Virus record (IMG/VR): IMGVR_UViG_3300027712_001108
Span: 62,001-126,000 of that record
DNA length: 64,000 bases
Source of the DNA: a virus
Direction: 5' to 3' (one strand)
A program made the position numbers and the translations under genes. Every line of letters begins with the position of its first letter. Position 1 is the first letter of the stretch. Below the pieces are notes generated by a model. It was not told the DNA's origin. It ran no database searches and saw nothing but the letters and a program-made list of their open reading frames with translations. Shown piece by piece: positions 2,816 to 63,500 of this stretch.

Positions 2816-3871
2816 ATGCGATATTATGAAATAGCAAACACTGCTAGTCTTGAAATGCTAGACGAAGGGTGGATTTCCAAAGCTGCAAAGTGGGCGGCTG
2901 CGGGTGCAACAGCCGCAGCATTGGGATATGTAGCAGGTGACATTACCAAACAGCCAGGCCGTGATATACAGCAAACACCTGATAGTATCGCACAGCAAAT
3001 GGATTATGCAAATAATACAGCATTGGACGAACCTGCAGGACCGTCTAGCTTGGCACCTACTACATCGCCTCGTCCTAAGGCAAGACCCGCTGATTTAACA
3101 GGCAACTCTACGCAAGGTAATACAGTAGATGTACAAACGCCAGGTCCTGACACAGTTAGACCAAAATTGAGACCCGACGATACAATAGATGTACAAACGC
3201 CAGGACCAGATACTGTCAGGCCACGGCCACGTCCAGATACTGACCTAAGTAAAATTCCGCCACCCACAATGCCACAGGACGTACTGGTTTCTAGATTGGC
3301 AACCGCAGATGCCAATGTAAAAGTAAACAACATCAGCAATAATAAAGACATAGAAAACATGTTGATAACAACTGCAACTTCTGCAGGTATAGTAGATACT
3401 GAGTTACAGGCATTTTTGGCACAGGCATATCATGAAAGCCGTAATTTTACATCAACTGTAGAGCAACGGTACGGCAAAGGCAAAAACTATTTTAAACGTG
3501 CATATGACATACGATATAACCCTGTTGCAGCAACGAGACTGGGAAATATAAAACCAGGCGACGGTGAAAAATTCAAAGGTCGTGGGTATCTGCAAATTAC
3601 GGGACGTTTTAATTATTCAAAAGCAGCCAAGGCTCTGGGGTTGCCACTGTTAGAACAACCAGAACTGTTGGAAGATCCAAAAATAGCTGCCGCAGTATCG
3701 GTATGGTTTTGGAAATGGCGAGTGCGAGCTCGCAGTTCAGGCGACTGGAACAATGTGCAAGAAATCACCAACATTGTTAATGGAGGCGACACCGCAGTCG
3801 ATGACCGAGGCGAACTGTTTGATGCGTATGGACATCTAAGATCGTTAAAACGCGAAACAAGACCTGATTGA
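2816..3871 (+). CDS. GH19 chitinase-like endolysin with leader and Pro-rich linker
   Basis: 351 residues. Residues 1-17 (MRYYEIA...MLDE) look like a capsid-targeting leader ending in the L-x-E cleavage consensus of T4 prohead protease. Residues of about 20-45 are Ala/Gly-rich and could insert in membrane. Residues of about 75-145 are a Pro-rich linker with a repeated TPGPDTVRP unit. The C-terminal 180 residues are a GH19 lysozyme/chitinase domain: AYHES with the likely catalytic Glu207, GDGEKFKGRGYLQITGR, then NIVNGG. It would cut peptidoglycan during lysis, or during entry if packaged as the leader suggests. A CTAAATAT late box precedes it. Confidence 0.85.
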   Translation: MRYYEIANTASLEMLDEGWISKAAKWAAAGATAAALGYVAGDITKQPGRDIQQTPDSIAQQMDYANNTALDEPAGPSSLAPTTSPRPKARPADLTGNSTQGNTVDVQTPGPDTVRPKLRPDDTIDVQTPGPDTVRPRPRPDTDLSKIPPPTMPQDVLVSRLATADANVKVNNISNNKDIENMLITTATSAGIVDTELQAFLAQAYHESRNFTSTVEQRYGKGKNYFKRAYDIRYNPVAATRLGNIKPGDGEKFKGRGYLQITGRFNYSKAAKALGLPLLEQPELLEDPKIAAAVSVWFWKWRVRARSSGDWNNVQEITNIVNGGDTAVDDRGELFDAYGHLRSLKRETRPD

Positions 3872-3920
3872 CAACGCTGCATCTTATCGCTATATTACTA
3901 ATGTAGACGAAAAAGAATAC

Positions 3921-3997
3921 GGGGGGTTAGCTCAATTGGTTAGAGCGCCGGACTCATAATCCGTAGGTTGCCAGTTCAAGTCTGGCACTCCCTACCA
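3921..3997 (+). tRNA. tRNA with CAT anticodon, probably tRNA-Ile2
   Basis: Complete cloverleaf, anticodon loop CTCATAA, T-loop TTCAAGT, CCA encoded. The other elongator CAT tRNA (22828) resembles tRNA-Met more closely, so this one may be the lysidine-modified Ile(AUA) tRNA. The acceptor has two G-U pairs. Confidence 0.85.
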
Positions 3998-4002
3998 AAC
4001 TT

Positions 4003-4077
4003 GCGTGTATGGTCCAGATGGATGGGCACGGGACTCTAAATCCTAGGAGGCAGGCTCAATACCTGTTATACGCACCA
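4003..4077 (+). tRNA. Amber suppressor tRNA (anticodon CTA)
   Basis: Acceptor GCGTGTA pairs with TATACGC; D-stem GTCC/GGGC; anticodon stem closes a seven-base loop CTCTAAA with U33 and anticodon CTA; T-stem GCAGG/CCTGT; discriminator A; CCA encoded. It should read UAG. Codons 34 bases downstream begin ATG TCG TAG. The amino acid identity cannot be read from the sequence. Confidence 0.85.
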
Positions 4078-4083
4078 TAAATA
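4077..4083 (+). promoter_or_regulatory. T4-like late promoter box
   Basis: ATAAATA starts on the last base of the suppressor tRNA CCA and lies upstream of the gene at 4111. Confidence 0.4.
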
Positions 4084-4110
4084 ATTCAGTGTTTAAGGAG
4101 AAATAACACC

Positions 4111-4719
4111 ATGTCGTAGATTGAAATTGCCTGTACCGAGTTAGTATTCCACTTTAATAAAAAACACTTAGAAGATCCCACTATTCCAATGTGGGTTGTT
4201 AAGACCAAAGGTGAGACGTATTACGTCCATCATGTCAGCAGTGACATGCCATGGTCTACAAAAGAAACTCCCAACAATAACAGTACCAAAGGCAGCATTA
4301 AGTTTAAACGGTGTCATCTTGTTATTGATGACAACAATGACGCTACTATCAAGCCGTTGACAATGAGCGATGCTATACGTCTCAAAAAGACAGAGCCCAA
4401 GAAAATACGACTGATTATGGATTATCGCAAACAGATAGACGAATTTGTTGAATACTGCGATGAACAAGAGATTTGGCATGATGGGGTTCACATACTGCCG
4501 GGTAGCTGTGGTTCGAGATTCTATGCAACCGATATCAAAGAAGATGACCTGCTGCTTACTCGCATGCGGTTCCCACCTAAGATGTTCCGTGAACTGATGC
4601 CCAATGAATATCTATATGCGTACTACGATAAAGTAGGACCTGATGTAGAACCACCAGATTACGACGACGATTACTACGATGACGACGAAGACGAAGATGA
4701 CGATGAGGACGCAGCCTAA
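4111..4719 (+). CDS. Conserved-type protein with in-frame TAG at codon 3 and acidic tail
   Basis: AAGGAG nine bases upstream selects ATG 4111. Codon 3 is TAG (4117-4119). The frame then stays open to TAA 4717-4719, giving 202 residues counting the amber position. The stretch after the TAG (IEIACTELVFHF, then HLEDPTIPMWVVKTKGETYY) reads as ordinary protein, and no Shine-Dalgarno site precedes the next ATG at 4189. Full-length product therefore seems to need suppression by the CTA tRNA 34 bases upstream, or reinitiation. The last 30 residues are Asp/Glu/Tyr-rich. Function unknown. Confidence 0.75.
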
Positions 4720-5612: not shown

Positions 5613-6200
5613 ATGATAGACAGATACATACCCAAGTTTCTAGACATACTGTATGATCCCACTGTGCTACAAGCAGTGCGGTTAGAAGAAATCAGAGATG
5701 CATTTCACTCTAACCAAATAATCAGTAAGAATTGTGCTATTGCTGCATTTGACAGTTTGCCTACAGCAGACAGAAATGTGTTGTACATTGGCTCATGGAT
5801 TGGATTTTTGACGCACTATATCTGCGACAACTATCCTCACTGCACAGTAACAGAACTAGACATTGATGTAAGATGTAAACTCATTAGCCAACGGTTTAAT
5901 GAACGGTTTACAAACTATATCAACAGTTATACAAGTGATGTAGAGTGTTTTGGTTACCTCAATAACTATGACACTGTAATCAATCTAAGCTGTGAACATA
6001 TTAGCAGCAACTGGATTGACAAACTACAAAAAGGCACTACATTAGTGCTACAAACGAATAACTTCAAAATTCCAGAACATGTTAACACTTGTGAAACACT
6101 GGATGAAATGCGCGAAAAATATCAGTTGAGTGAAACATACTATGCGGAAGCAACTGTGTTAAATGCGTATACAAGATTTACACTGGCTGGCAAACGCTAA
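5613..6200 (+). CDS. Class I SAM methyltransferase-like protein
   Basis: 195 residues from ATG 5613; an upstream in-frame GTG at 5598 would add five residues. NVLYIGSWIGFLTHYI near residue 62 matches motif I (hydrophobic strand, then G-x-W/x-G), followed by TVTELDID with an acidic residue at the end of strand 2. There is no canonical catalytic NPPY or DPPY, so it is probably not a DNA N6-adenine enzyme. Substrate unknown. tRNA-Cys follows 15 bases downstream. Confidence 0.55.
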   Translation: MIDRYIPKFLDILYDPTVLQAVRLEEIRDAFHSNQIISKNCAIAAFDSLPTADRNVLYIGSWIGFLTHYICDNYPHCTVTELDIDVRCKLISQRFNERFTNYINSYTSDVECFGYLNNYDTVINLSCEHISSNWIDKLQKGTTLVLQTNNFKIPEHVNTCETLDEMREKYQLSETYYAEATVLNAYTRFTLAGKR

Positions 6201-6215
6201 TCAGTGATATTAATT

Positions 6216-6289
6216 GGCCGGGTGGCGGAATGGCTACGCAGTGGATTGCAAATCCATGTACGGGGGTTCGATTCCCTCCTCGGCCTCCA
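6216..6289 (+). tRNA. tRNA-Cys (GCA)
   Basis: Acceptor GGCCGGG/CTCGGCC, anticodon GCA, T-loop TTCGATT, discriminator U, CCA encoded. Confidence 0.92.
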
Positions 6290-29302: not shown

Positions 29303-30076
29303 ATAAACGACACTGTGTTTACACAGACATATTGGGTAGTAACACTGTTAAGTAGCATTTGGTGATTCTTATGTGAAACAACAGGGTTAAACGCTTTCAA
29401 CAATAAGTTGGGATGTTACAATTAATCACTGTATCTACCGACTGACGATAGAGTAACAGTATGTCGATGCAAACACAGTTAGCTTTAATACACCTAACAA
29501 CAGCGAATGCTCGTTGCTGCTGAAAGAAACGACGGATGATGCAGCTTTAAAGTCCGTTGAACGCTTCTGTTGTAGATGTATTAGAGTTTGGATGATACGG
29601 CCGTTGAGAAACGTGAATATCATCTATGAGATTGGGGGTTTAGCCTCAATAGGATAAGTGCAGTGATGCACCCAAAGCCGGAAAGCCTACATACCGGCGC
29701 TAGTAAAATAGTCCATCTAAACAAGCCTGAACCAGTGTTGACTCGGGCAACCGAAAGCAACACCCGTCCGTAGAAAGGCGGTAGGCAGTAAGTTAGGAGC
29801 TCTGTCCGAAAGGATAGTCGCAGAGCCAGTCGGTGAGCGATAAGAGGGTTGGCGCCCAAACAGAGTTCAGCCAAACTAACGAATGCTGACAGTTAACAGG
29901 TAGTTACAGTGTCTGAGCCCGCAAGCAAAGGCATGGTAGCATTTCAAGAGTGGAAGGGTTAGGCCCCGGATACTTGAAGAAAGGTCAAGTAGTTCGCAAG
30001 ACGAAAGACACGAGGTGTGTTGTATTGGGTATGCCAAAAGCATATTCAGCAGCGGTGGTAGCACATCTCAGATAGG

Positions 30077-30153
30077 TTGCAAATAACTCAGCGGTAGAGT
30101 AATTCCCTTCTAAGGAATCGGCGAAGGTTCAATCCCTTCTTTGATAAATGCAA
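30077..30153 (+). tRNA. tRNA-Arg-like (TCT) element embedded in the long RNA
   Basis: D-arm ACTC/GAGT, anticodon arm ATTCC-CTTCTAA-GGAAT and T-arm GAAGG-TTCAATC-CCTTC are perfect. The acceptor is TTGCAAA against TTTG-CAA, split by a 7-base insert ATAAATG, and no CCA is present. It is likely a structural domain of the long RNA, not a working tRNA. Confidence 0.6.
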
Positions 30154-30469
30154 AGTCTACCACGGTATGTTGTGTAAGGTGTCAAATACTTGAGGCGCAA
30201 GCCAATCAAGTTCAACAAAGCTCGCAAGGCAGCGTTGATTTGTACTAGAAGATTCGTAGCTCGCAAGGCTTAATGGTTCGCAAGATCAACGGATAATAAG
30301 GTGCAGAATAGCAGCATATGACGAGTCTACTGCCTGACTCTAAAAACGGCGACACTGTTAGTGGACCAGATTACCGCAAGGGATCTAGTGGATGTCGGAA
30401 GAAAGCAACTCGCAAGGTTGGTAATAATGTCCGAAGCATTAACATCGAACGTGTAATCTCAGCGTTTTC

Positions 30470-39829: not shown

Positions 39830-40000
39830 GGTTGGTAATCCTGAAACCCTGAGACAAGTGAGGTGAGAACGCCCGTCTCACACACCAGCAATGGTAAAGT
39901 AGCGCAAGCGAAGAGATGCAGGAATCCTGTCTGTATGGCAGGTTGAAAACTGGGAACCTGCCACTTGTCAATACCCATTAAGATCGGCAGTAGGCCAACC
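39830..40000 (+). ncRNA. Structured RNA upstream of gene at 40024
   Basis: Nested helices GGTTGG (39830)/CCAACC (39995), GACAAGTG (near 39853)/CACTTGTC (near 39963) and GGCAGGTT (39937)/AACCTGCC (39955), with an alternative TGAGAC/GTCTCA. It ends 24 bases before an ATG, so it may be a structured leader (riboswitch or protein site) or a separate RNA. Confidence 0.55.
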
Positions 40001-60568: not shown

Positions 60569-63500
60569 ATGAAAATCAAAAATATCACATCGCGAATTAA
60601 GTTGGCAGAAGCACCTGGTACCGGACAAGCGACTCAGGTACGTCCTGCTACTAATGTGCCACGCGGTATGCGCAATTCTACAGGCAATGGTCCTAAAAAA
60701 CCCACTAACTTTGCAGCAAACGACAATATTGTTAAAAAAGCCGCTGACATGATTGGTAGTACAGGTGCATCAGCTGAAGAAATTGTAGCAAGTCCATGGT
60801 ATGCAAGATGGTACGATACATTTGCAGATGGTGCAAAATTTGCGGGCAAAGGTGCCTGGAATGGTGTTAAGATTGCCGGTAAAGTTGCAAGCAAAGTTGC
60901 ATTGCCATTGCTGGCGTGTGTGGCCATATATGACGGCTATACTCAAATAACTGCCATAGATAAAAATGATACCAATCGTAGAAATAAAATAATTGCTATA
61001 GTAACTAAACTTGTGGCAGATTATGGATTTCCGGCAGTTGCAGGATATCTCGGTGCAATGGCAGGTGGTGCAGTTGGTGCATGGGTAGGCGGAGTAGGTG
61101 CGGCACCTGGTGCATTGATAGGAGGTATTGCCGGAGAAGCTGCTGCGTTTATTACACAATGGCAATATGGTGATAATATAGATCAAGCAATTGAAGATCT
61201 AGTAGATAATGTTCTTATGGATGCACCGCCATTGCGAAAAGCAACAGGTACATACACTGCACCGTATGATGTATCCAACGACGAACAAGGTGCACCGTTA
61301 CCCTATGACGATATTGTGCCTAATCCAATTGTCAATCCAAATTCGAATCCTGTTGTAGATCCTTCTACACCAGTTGTAACTAAACCTGCTGCTGTAACTG
61401 CATCACCCACTGCACAAAATACTGCTAAAAAACCTGAAAGTAAACCAAAAACTGCTGTAACACCAAGTGCTGCAAGTACTACTACAAGACCACCGACTGC
61501 TAAGTTGCCAGTTACAACATCTACACCAACTGTGCCTCAAACTCCAAAGGTTACAATACCTAAAACTCCTACAACTGCAACACAGCCTAATTATGATGAG
61601 TTAACATTCAAGCAGGCATTTGCTCGTGCCAGAGAACGTGCAAGACAATTGTCACCTGATGATGCAGGCAAGTATACATTTACATGGCGTGGTAAACCAT
61701 ATCAAACAAATTACAAAGGCAGTGGCACTGCTGCCAGACCAAATGAGCCTTATATATCTCAGAAAAAGCAGCGCGGTATGATGAGTACTGCACCAATAAA
61801 AAATCCATACGAAAATCCAAAAAACGAAAGCATGAATTTTGCTGTTGATGAAGGAGTGTTAGACGTACTTGGCAGACTTGGTACAGGTATCAAAGGGTTG
61901 TTTAAAGGCGGTAAAGCACTTACCGCAGCAGAGAAAGCAGCAGCTGAAGCCGCCGAAGTCGCAGCAAAAGCTGCTAGAGCATTAGAGAAGACACTGTCTA
62001 ACGGTAGGAAATATAGATACGACGAACTTAAAAAAGTCTGGTATGATGTTGAAAAAGAAGCTACCATAGGTAAAAAAGCAGCACAAGTAAATTCTGCCAG
62101 TGTAGAAGGTCGTGAGCTATATGCTATACGATCTGCAAAAATAGATGCAGAGGCTGCGGCTTCGGCAGGTACCACTGCATCTAAAATTACACCAGAGGTT
62201 AAAGCATTATTACGCAAAAAGCCGCCAGAAAGTTGGACAGTTGCAGAACTTACAAGCTTGGGTCTTAAAATAGAGGATGTGCCATTTTTATCTGCTGCTA
62301 GATCAGTGGGGCTTGACATTGCTGCAACTGCTGACGAAATTGTCAAGGCGCCATGGTATAGTGCATGGAGCAAGCTTGTACATGTCACCGGAGTTGTTTC
62401 TAATAATCTATTAATGGCTGCAATAAATGGTGCAGTGCCTGTATTTGAAGCAATTGGAAAACTACAACAACTTGATAAAAATGATCCAAATTATCAACGT
62501 AGACGAAACGAAATATGGGCAGAGTGTATTGCAAAAATTGGTGTACAGGCAACTGCTGCTATACTAGGTGCCGCAATTGCTCGTAAGTTAGTAGGTAAAG
62601 TCACAGCTAATAACAAAGCAAAATGGGTAGCAACACTGGTTGGAGAGTTTGCAGGGTTGACTGCTGAACAAATTTTCATAGATCCAAGTATAGAATCTAT
62701 AGTGCAAAAAGCCAGCGACGTTATAACAGGAACTACAATACCCAGAGGGCAGGTGACTGATCCCACAACCGGTGAACCTCAGACAAACGCAGATGGCACA
62801 CCTGCAAATTACGGCGATGTTACAAATAATCCATTGTATAAGAAGGCATATAACTGGGCAGTAAAATCTGGATATACAGGTGATGGTCCTGCTAGATTTG
62901 CCATGATGATTTATAAACAAGGGCCAAATGGTCCTCTTGTTAATCAACTAAATGAAACTATTTTAGTTGGATGGCTCTACAAACAACTACAAGAGTCAAC
63001 AGATGCACGACGCACTATTAACATCCACAATAGTATTAGATCTATACTAGCAGAACGTACCAATGCCGATGCAATTGAACGTGTTGCATTCACATTGGTG
63101 GAATCTGGTATATTCAATGAAGATGCCGATAGTGATAACTTTATGACCAATGTCACTGCTGCCATTGCAGCCAATACCAAAGGCGACAAAGTAGGCGCAC
63201 AAAAAGCCCTTGATGCTGCAAAATTGAATAACCCAGCCACAGGCACTGATCAAACCAATCAAAAGAAAATGCTGGATCAATTGACCAAAGCAAATCCCAG
63301 CCTGGCCGTACCCAATACCAATCCAAACTCTACTCAAAATCAAACACCAAATCCCAATGCCACACAGAGTAATGTTGAAGAAGCCGGCGGCATCGGCGGC
63401 GGCATGTCTGGTGGTGCAATACACGGTCAGGCAGTTGGTGCTAATGCAACAGAAGTAATTCAAGCCTATAATGAATTTGCAGCACAATATCCCATTGCTA

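Follow-up and report, generated by a model that had tools for sequence, protein, structure and literature searches.

A conserved early stop codon beside a phage suppressor tRNA: a putative nonsense-suppression switch in large phages

The Locus and Its Features

The viral DNA analysed here comprises 64 kb (positions 62,001 to 126,000) of the 157,923-base IMG/VR virus record IMGVR_UViG_3300027712_001108, and the whole of this stretch is referred to as the window. Near its beginning, a tRNA with the anticodon CTA, a putative suppressor of amber (UAG) stop codons, is followed by a gene of a family that we call HFNKKH, whose third codon is itself an in-frame TAG. This pairing of an early stop with a suppressor tRNA, its recurrence among large phages and its possible role as a switch of gene expression are the subject of the present work. 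The features of the locus are the following:

4003–4077, plus strand: amber suppressor tRNA, anticodon CTA at 4036–4038, discriminator A, CCA encoded (Rfam RF00005, ARAGORN at a lower threshold, sequence)
4095–4100, plus strand: ribosome-binding site AAGGAG, 10 nucleotides (nt) before the ATG; similar sites precede the ATG of most relatives
4111–4719, plus strand: HFNKKH-family gene (P0001), 202 amino acids if the TAG is read as an amino acid
4117–4119, plus strand: in-frame TAG at codon 3, conserved, next base A (TAG ATT)
4120–4350, plus strand: N-terminal domain, about residues 4–80, with the almost invariant VFHFNKKHLEDPTIPMW ... PWSTKETPDN.HTKGSIK
4393–4635, plus strand: C-terminal domain, about residues 95–175, weak ferredoxin/S10-like fold match, with an acidic tail after it

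The gene opens with ATG TCG TAG (ATG at 4111–4113), 34 nt past the suppressor tRNA, and then runs through 199 open codons to a TAA at 4717–4719, much as a first-pass annotation of this DNA had described it, ribosome site included. It is the only gene of the window in which a convincing coding segment lies directly behind an early in-frame TAG. That annotation was also right that TAG is not generally recoded here, since 8 of the 63 long open reading frames (ORFs) of the window end in this codon. Its description of the tRNA as a well-formed cloverleaf held for the tRNA itself, although not for the form. With default settings ARAGORN found 34 tRNA genes in the window, the CTA tRNA not among them; at a lower threshold the program reads the anticodon cta in 4003–4077, and the Rfam model RF00005 recovers positions 4003–4074 with 41.1 bits, against a cut-off of 29. 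The one flaw of this tRNA is a C-A mismatch that tops the anticodon stem.

The predicted product P0001 has no family in Pfam or PHROGs, no counterpart among solved structures and no match to the PTH2 profile PF01981. Its N-terminal domain occurs as a stand-alone protein in Rhizobium phage RHph_I1_18. For the C-terminal domain, the best fold match is S10/ACT-like (Z 7.1), which is not above background and is at a level typical of models without a clear relative; because this match is only middling, we claim no function for the protein.

Conservation of the Early Stop

A scan of IMG/VR with the window protein gave 239 relatives, of which the best 80 were fetched, and further scans were made with an alignment, with the Rhizobium phage protein and with a Paenibacillus relative. 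Both this set and that of the PTH2-like family described below consist of the best-scoring relatives, with more distant members not evenly sampled, and the IMG/VR records may be fragments. Nearly all of the best 80 HFNKKH relatives start with ATG-N(1-4)-TAG, and ATT GAA is the commonest continuation. Altogether, 93 of 121 distinct downstream proteins carry an early TAG, defined as one at most 14 codons from the conserved FHFN motif, at protein identities to the window of mostly 40–55%; the closest relative (L003, 86% identical) retains it too. The early in-frame stop is thus kept while the protein diverges. Its codon is usually the third, sometimes the second, fourth, fifth or a later one, and the distance between stop and domain differs by a codon or two; therefore, it is the early position that is conserved, and not a residue within the fold.

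The region between the TAG and the next methionine (codons 4–26) is the most constrained part of the gene, with nonsynonymous and synonymous divergences of pN 0.075 and pS 0.65. This purifying selection argues that these codons are translated. The first-pass annotation had asked whether homologues extend upstream of residue 27 (the Met encoded at 4189) with a sense codon in place of the TAG, and its two halves fared differently: homologues do not begin at Met27 and do extend upstream, whereas a sense codon is mostly not found, the TAG being kept in the 93 of 121 proteins mentioned. Additional constraint on synonymous sites in codons 4–26, as seen between the window and L003, was not clearly upheld across 234 pairs. 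A sequencing error at 4117–4119, named beforehand as a possible refutation, or a pseudogene, is ruled out by the conservation of the stop across isolates and independent assemblies. One such isolate is RHph_I1_18 (MN988519), where the gene reads MSEFM*NESCREVIFHFNK.. and is not annotated, while a 'tRNA-Pyl(cta)' is annotated about 30 nt downstream.

In a tree of 120 HFNKKH members, the place of the early stop changed at least eight times and its presence once, the stop being absent only in three Paenibacillus sequences. These belong with the Paenibacillus-type relatives L086 and L230–L232, the only clade without an early stop, of which L086 sits within a tRNA cluster; a scan of genome contigs for HFNKKH yielded as its only relative the Paenibacillus one without an early stop. 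Among all the other genes of the loci, early TAGs outside the HFNKKH family, the PTH2-like family and one homing endonuclease were only unsupported singletons and duplicates. This GIY-YIG/NUMOD3 homing endonuclease (L147:3119–3788, also in L149, L194 and L195) lies upstream of an HFNKKH gene and opens, like the genes of that family, with MA*IEY, suggestive of a copied or split version of the gated HFNKKH start.

Linkage and Covariation of tRNA and Stop Codon

By ARAGORN anticodon counts, the suppressor tRNA is SPECIFICALLY linked to the early-TAG loci. The other anticodons are the right control, because these phages carry tRNA clusters. A CTA tRNA occurs in 72 of the 93 HFNKKH loci with an early TAG, and the next most frequent anticodon, CAT, in 16; Rfam adds five more CTA tRNAs in HFNKKH loci. 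In the interval from 400 nt before to 350 nt after the HFNKKH start, 29 CTA tRNAs were counted, and any other anticodon at most twice. The PTH2-like loci with an early TAG repeat this pattern (54 of 62 with a CTA tRNA, the next anticodon in 18).

A related pair of jumbo phages allows the stop and the anticodon to be followed together. The operon is common to Sinorhizobium phage Phosso and Agrobacterium phage Atu_ph07, whose PTH2 proteins are 73% identical. In Phosso, the true start of the PTH2 gene is ATG AAG TAT TAG, the annotated start lying downstream, and the genome has two ordinary CTA tRNAs, one of them about 4.5 kb upstream of the operon. In Atu_ph07, the gene starts with ATG ATT GGC GAA CAC TTT TGA, as it also does in an IMG/VR record, and the genome carries an ordinary 75-nt TCA tRNA (430713–430787, 60.1 bits) and no CTA tRNA among the tRNAs read. 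The paper on that genome (PMC6102473) describes the UCA suppressor without settling its target, and has the PTH (gp256) as a separate item. As read from these genomes, stop and anticodon covary, TAG with CTA and TGA with TCA, as the suppression model predicts, and in each case the matching suppressor tRNA resides in the same genome as the stop.

Some further RNAs of these loci deserve mention. The contig of L010, where the HFNKKH gene has an early TAG and the flanks hold no CTA tRNA, has a match to the selenocysteine tRNA family (6156–6241, 53.4 bits, cut-off 47). A freshwater-2 RNA (L021:2714–2794, minus strand, RF02980, 78 bits) adjoins a suppressor tRNA. In the mycobacteriophages Phabba (L384:1371–1441) and Myrna (L267:1472–1543), ARAGORN reads a CTA anticodon in tRNAs annotated as Arg(tct) and Ser, which are probably mis-annotated suppressors.

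A Second Gated Family and the Place of the Stop

When the HFNKKH gene itself has no early stop, the stop in nearly all cases sits elsewhere in the operon. In 19 HFNKKH operons it lies instead in an upstream PTH2-like gene (18 TAG, one TGA), as in L005, L203, L208, L211, L212, L218, L220, L222 and others, and the neighbouring gene with the early TAG is always PTH2-like. Counting distinct PTH2-like genes beside HFNKKH in the first loci, 18 of 18 have an early stop (17 TAG, one TGA). In five other loci (L056, L108, L130, L132 and L156), a normal ATG gene is preceded by a short ATG-..-TAG leader and an intrinsic terminator. Past the TAG, the frame of four of these leaders stays open for 25–39 codons through the terminator hairpin and ends overlapping the gene start or shortly before it. 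Readthrough of the UAG would therefore act here as antitermination.

The PTH2-like family offers an independent test. An alignment scan gave 309 relatives, with 65 distinct genes among the best 80, and 62 of these 65 have a TAG a few codons after the ATG (59 strictly, three with a later in-frame ATG); a truncated gene, an unclear case and a gene that lacks the early TAG make up the rest. Many of the early-TAG genes have no HFNKKH gene nearby. The gene is present in 198 phage records. Named records with the early stop are the huge phages LR756500, LR756501 and LR756502, where it begins with ATG-X(1-2)-TAG-ATT, the mycobacteriophages Alice, I3 and Cane17 (ATG TAG GTG), and Myrna, Phabba and ScoobyDoobyDoo (GTG TAG GTG). 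A CTA tRNA lies shortly downstream of the gene in all six mycobacteriophages read (clusters C1 and C2).

In profile and fold, the gated proteins are alike to PTH2: all 53 aligned members match PF01981 (E<=0.01), and a predicted model (predicted local distance difference test, pLDDT, 92.5) matches the PTH2 crystal structures 2zv3, 3erj and 1q7s (E 3e-8). They differ from the canonical PTH2 of phages in the early stop and, in most members, in a motif of the canonical type, KGK(I/L), which is replaced by GYQ(A/V). Thus the lysine of KGK is absent from most of them, the members from huge phages and mycobacteriophages having GYQ(A/V)VQ where the canonical sequence reads KGKIAAQ, whereas rhizobial members keep GK. 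Because most members lack this canonical lysine, hydrolase activity of the gated subtype is not assured. Canonical PTH2 genes at eight phage places (XacN1, SCTP-2, RAS14, phiM12, Sandalphon, LR745208, LR756511 and the other LR756500 copy) show no early stop. XacN1, with CUA suppressors and a PTH2, had been checked as a prediction, and its ORF295 is a canonical PTH2 gene without an early stop.

The two families also agree in the base that follows the early UAG. Among 93 HFNKKH genes, 85 have A there and 8 have G, and the 58 PTH2-like genes have A in 46 cases, G in 11 and C in 1, which makes a purine in 150 of 151, whereas in these loci the base behind a TAG that ends a long ORF in the ordinary way is A 26, T 22, C 16 and G 7 times. 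Formal p-values for this comparison are inflated by relatedness; two unrelated families nevertheless agree. Amber suppression is known to profit from a purine on the 3′ side, especially from A.

Surroundings of the Suppressor tRNA in the Window

Two more features precede the suppressor tRNA:

3868–3896, plus strand: promoter-like TTGACA-17-TATATT before both tRNAs, 11 of 12 consensus matches, a consensus match only
3921–3997, plus strand: tRNA-Met (CAT), separated by 5 nt from the suppressor tRNA that follows (Rfam 68.4 bits, ARAGORN)

The position of the promoter-like site, of which 2.7 would be expected by chance in the surrounding region, would allow tRNA-Met, suppressor tRNA and TAG gene to share one transcript. 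Elsewhere in the window, Rfam detects a GOLLD RNA (30012–30465, 217 bits) with a tRNA-Arg(TCT) inside it (30077–30147), and a skipping-rope RNA (39853–39969, RF02924, 49.8 bits, cut-off 36.7).

The tRNAs of pyrrolysine have a 6-bp anticodon stem, a 3-nt variable loop and a very small D-loop. Inspected by eye, the window tRNA does not have this shape: its anticodon stem has five positions with one mismatch, its variable loop 4 nt and its D-loop 8 nt with GG. The label 'Pyl' is given by ARAGORN to any CTA anticodon. A profile search of the 157,923-base record for a synthetase of the PylRS/PheRS type (PF01409) gave no match; the record may be incomplete, and the host could supply such an enzyme. 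Profile search of the same record also found no gene with an RF1 domain, and for PTH2 it gave a weak PF01981 hint (E 0.0015), with no PTH2-like frame on a quick motif look.

A Putative Nonsense-Suppression Switch and Its Alternatives

From these observations we consider it very probable that the suppressor tRNA encoded by the phage gates the operon by reading an in-frame stop, in other words, that this is a nonsense-suppression switch. The anatomy of the module, its conservation, the specific co-location with a CTA tRNA and the covariation of stop and anticodon can all be read from the DNA. Without the phage tRNA, a host release factor would cut translation short within a few residues, leaving no useful product. 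Once the phage suppressor had been transcribed, matured and charged, its anticodon CUA (UCA in one phage) would read the stop at codons 2–9 of the first gene of the operon, and readthrough would give the full-length product, namely, the PTH2-fold protein, the HFNKKH protein or both. In vivo, the full-length protein would hence depend on suppression, and in four relatives of the leader type UAG readthrough would also mean transcription antitermination. A private pairing of one TAG with its own suppressor had been proposed for the window at the outset; the single early TAG and its tRNA have stood up, conserved and covarying, while the privacy has not, given that the module is widespread and would gate an operon, often through its PTH2-like gene, rather than one fixed gene. 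The switch may, as was also suggested then, time expression during infection and respond to charging of the tRNA.

Several observations weigh against this interpretation. No CTA tRNA was seen in 12–16 of the 93 HFNKKH and in 8 of the 62 PTH2-like TAG loci, with 3–5 kb examined per locus, and searching 12 whole records by pattern for further CTA tRNAs returned matches at chance level, with similar control counts and none convincing. The covariation of stop and anticodon comes from one phage pair. The window tRNA folds as a weak cloverleaf, and votes on the isotype of the suppressors, obtained by comparison with other tRNAs of the same loci with the anticodon loop masked, are scattered over Val, Met, Thr, Arg and Lys. 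The leader of L132 closes three codons past its TAG. Furthermore, the PTH2-like gene of LR756501 (L266, a 735-kb phage) has a second internal TAG, and the codon after the TAG in mycobacteriophages, GTG, is a possible start.

This last codon leads to an explanation in which the tRNA is not needed, as the UAG would simply terminate translation and ribosomes would restart at the adjoining codon, mostly AUU. Such re-initiation could draw on AUU being a rare start codon, known from infC, and on ATT following the TAG in 64 of 93 HFNKKH and 35 of 58 PTH2 genes, along with the GTG of the mycobacteriophages. However, the strong starts ATG, GTG and TTG almost never follow the TAG (one ATG in the 151 tabulated genes), while GTA, GTT, ACT, AAC (in RHph_I1_18), AAA, CTT and GGC do occur there, and the adjoining CTA tRNA, the TGA/TCA pair of Atu_ph07 and the use of TAG and not TAA are all left unexplained, so that we regard re-initiation as very unlikely. 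Even harder to sustain is a global recoding of TAG (genetic code 15), which would make the early codon one sense TAG among many. Jumbo phages commonly have CTA suppressors and recoded TAGs (PMC13037316), the window does encode a CTA suppressor, and the further internal TAG of LR756501 suggests that this phage may be globally recoded. Yet TAG is not rare as a stop, ending 71 of 756 long ORFs in the loci of the relatives besides those counted in the window, and among all genes of these loci, recurrent early TAGs are confined to the HFNKKH family, the PTH2-like family and the homing endonuclease with the same start. Global recoding is thereby refuted for the window and most relatives, and possible for a few huge phages.

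The two remaining alternatives accept readthrough and differ in its meaning. In one of them, the early UAG would sense termination or peptidyl-tRNA drop-off (the supply of RF1), with slow release leading to readthrough and to a PTH-like protein that cleans up, closing a feedback loop. The PTH2 profile and fold of one gated product would fit such a loop, and so would the order AUG, few codons, stop, which resembles the minigenes that cause peptidyl-tRNA drop-off; peptidyl-tRNA from early drop-off is recycled by Pth, according to one report (PMC10192219). We nevertheless think this loop unlikely, if worth keeping in mind, as a suppressor tRNA would be needed anyway, the window and most relatives gate HFNKKH with no PTH2 seen beside the HFNKKH gene, most of the gated PTH2 subtype is without the KGK lysine, and the A 3′ of the stop suggests selection for efficient readthrough. 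The other alternative, which we hold to be rather improbable, is that the suppressor tRNA mainly serves another purpose, such as readthrough of host or phage UAGs, with PTH2 or HFNKKH as an antidote made in proportion through its own UAG. The tight linkage of tRNA and gene speaks for it, and PTH activity would clear peptidyl-tRNAs from misread stops, but no other conserved UAG target appeared in the loci scanned.

Relation to Known Systems

The putative switch shares some traits with known systems. As in the genetic code 15 recoding of crAss-like and jumbo phages (PMC9523058, PMC10607447, PMC13037316), a phage CUA tRNA would read UAG in a host with the standard code, and the timing of expression may depend on how much suppressor is available. 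In recoded phages, however, TAGs occupy many genes and have for the most part ceased to serve as stops, whereas here there is one stop, at codons 2–9 of one operon, its early position conserved, the tRNA usually adjacent and TAG still a stop elsewhere. The synthetic suppressor-tRNA 'leak dampener' (Ho et al. 2020, PMC7969014) likewise joins a gene with a nonsense codon to a suppressor tRNA in a coherent feed-forward loop, but it was man-made in Escherichia coli, while the phage module is natural, widespread and also found in opal and leader/terminator forms.

With selenocysteine and pyrrolysine decoding, the module has in common a dedicated tRNA that would read a stop at a conserved place in specific genes. 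In those systems, specialised enzymes or factors serve to incorporate an unusual amino acid at a site that matters for function; the phage stop lies instead at the extreme N-terminus, with variable spacing, and can be TGA, and the synthetase search described above found no PheRS/PylRS-type enzyme in the record. Autoregulation of RF2 (prfB) and leader-peptide attenuators also gate expression through an early stop or a leader peptide and the efficiency of its decoding. In prfB, +1 frameshifting at a UGA senses RF2, and classical attenuators sense charged sense-codon tRNAs, whereas the phage module would work by 0-frame nonsense suppression with a phage tRNA.

Biological Meaning

Across the records compared, the module is widespread among many unrelated large phages: a small operon, often one for a PTH2-like protein, has a stop at one of codons 2–9, and the suppressor tRNA is usually close. 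Expression would hang on the transcription, maturation and charging of the phage tRNA, as in a coherent feed-forward loop, and a tentative purpose, for which we claim no great confidence, would be that the state of the tRNA set encoded by the phage licenses the operon. It seems reasonably likely that the module represents a natural class of regulation, where a PTH2-like and/or HFNKKH operon is gated by a dedicated suppressor tRNA, at translation or at transcription (terminator readthrough), with stop and anticodon co-evolving and the operon reading out the phage tRNA pool. No natural early-stop operon with its own suppressor was found in open papers; subscription journals and preprints lay outside the scope of this search, and novelty is provisional.

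For XacN1 (PMC5852040) and Summit (PMC9022506), as for Atu_ph07, the respective papers say that the suppressor tRNAs have no known target or leave the target open. Whereas the suppressor tRNAs of non-recoded phages had no known target, the early-stop operon offers one, concrete and testable, in Atu_ph07 and in nearly 200 mycobacteriophage records. Annotation cuts or misses such genes, as with the unannotated gene of RHph_I1_18 and the misplaced PTH2 start of Phosso. The module would also be the natural equivalent of a hand-built circuit of synthetic biology.
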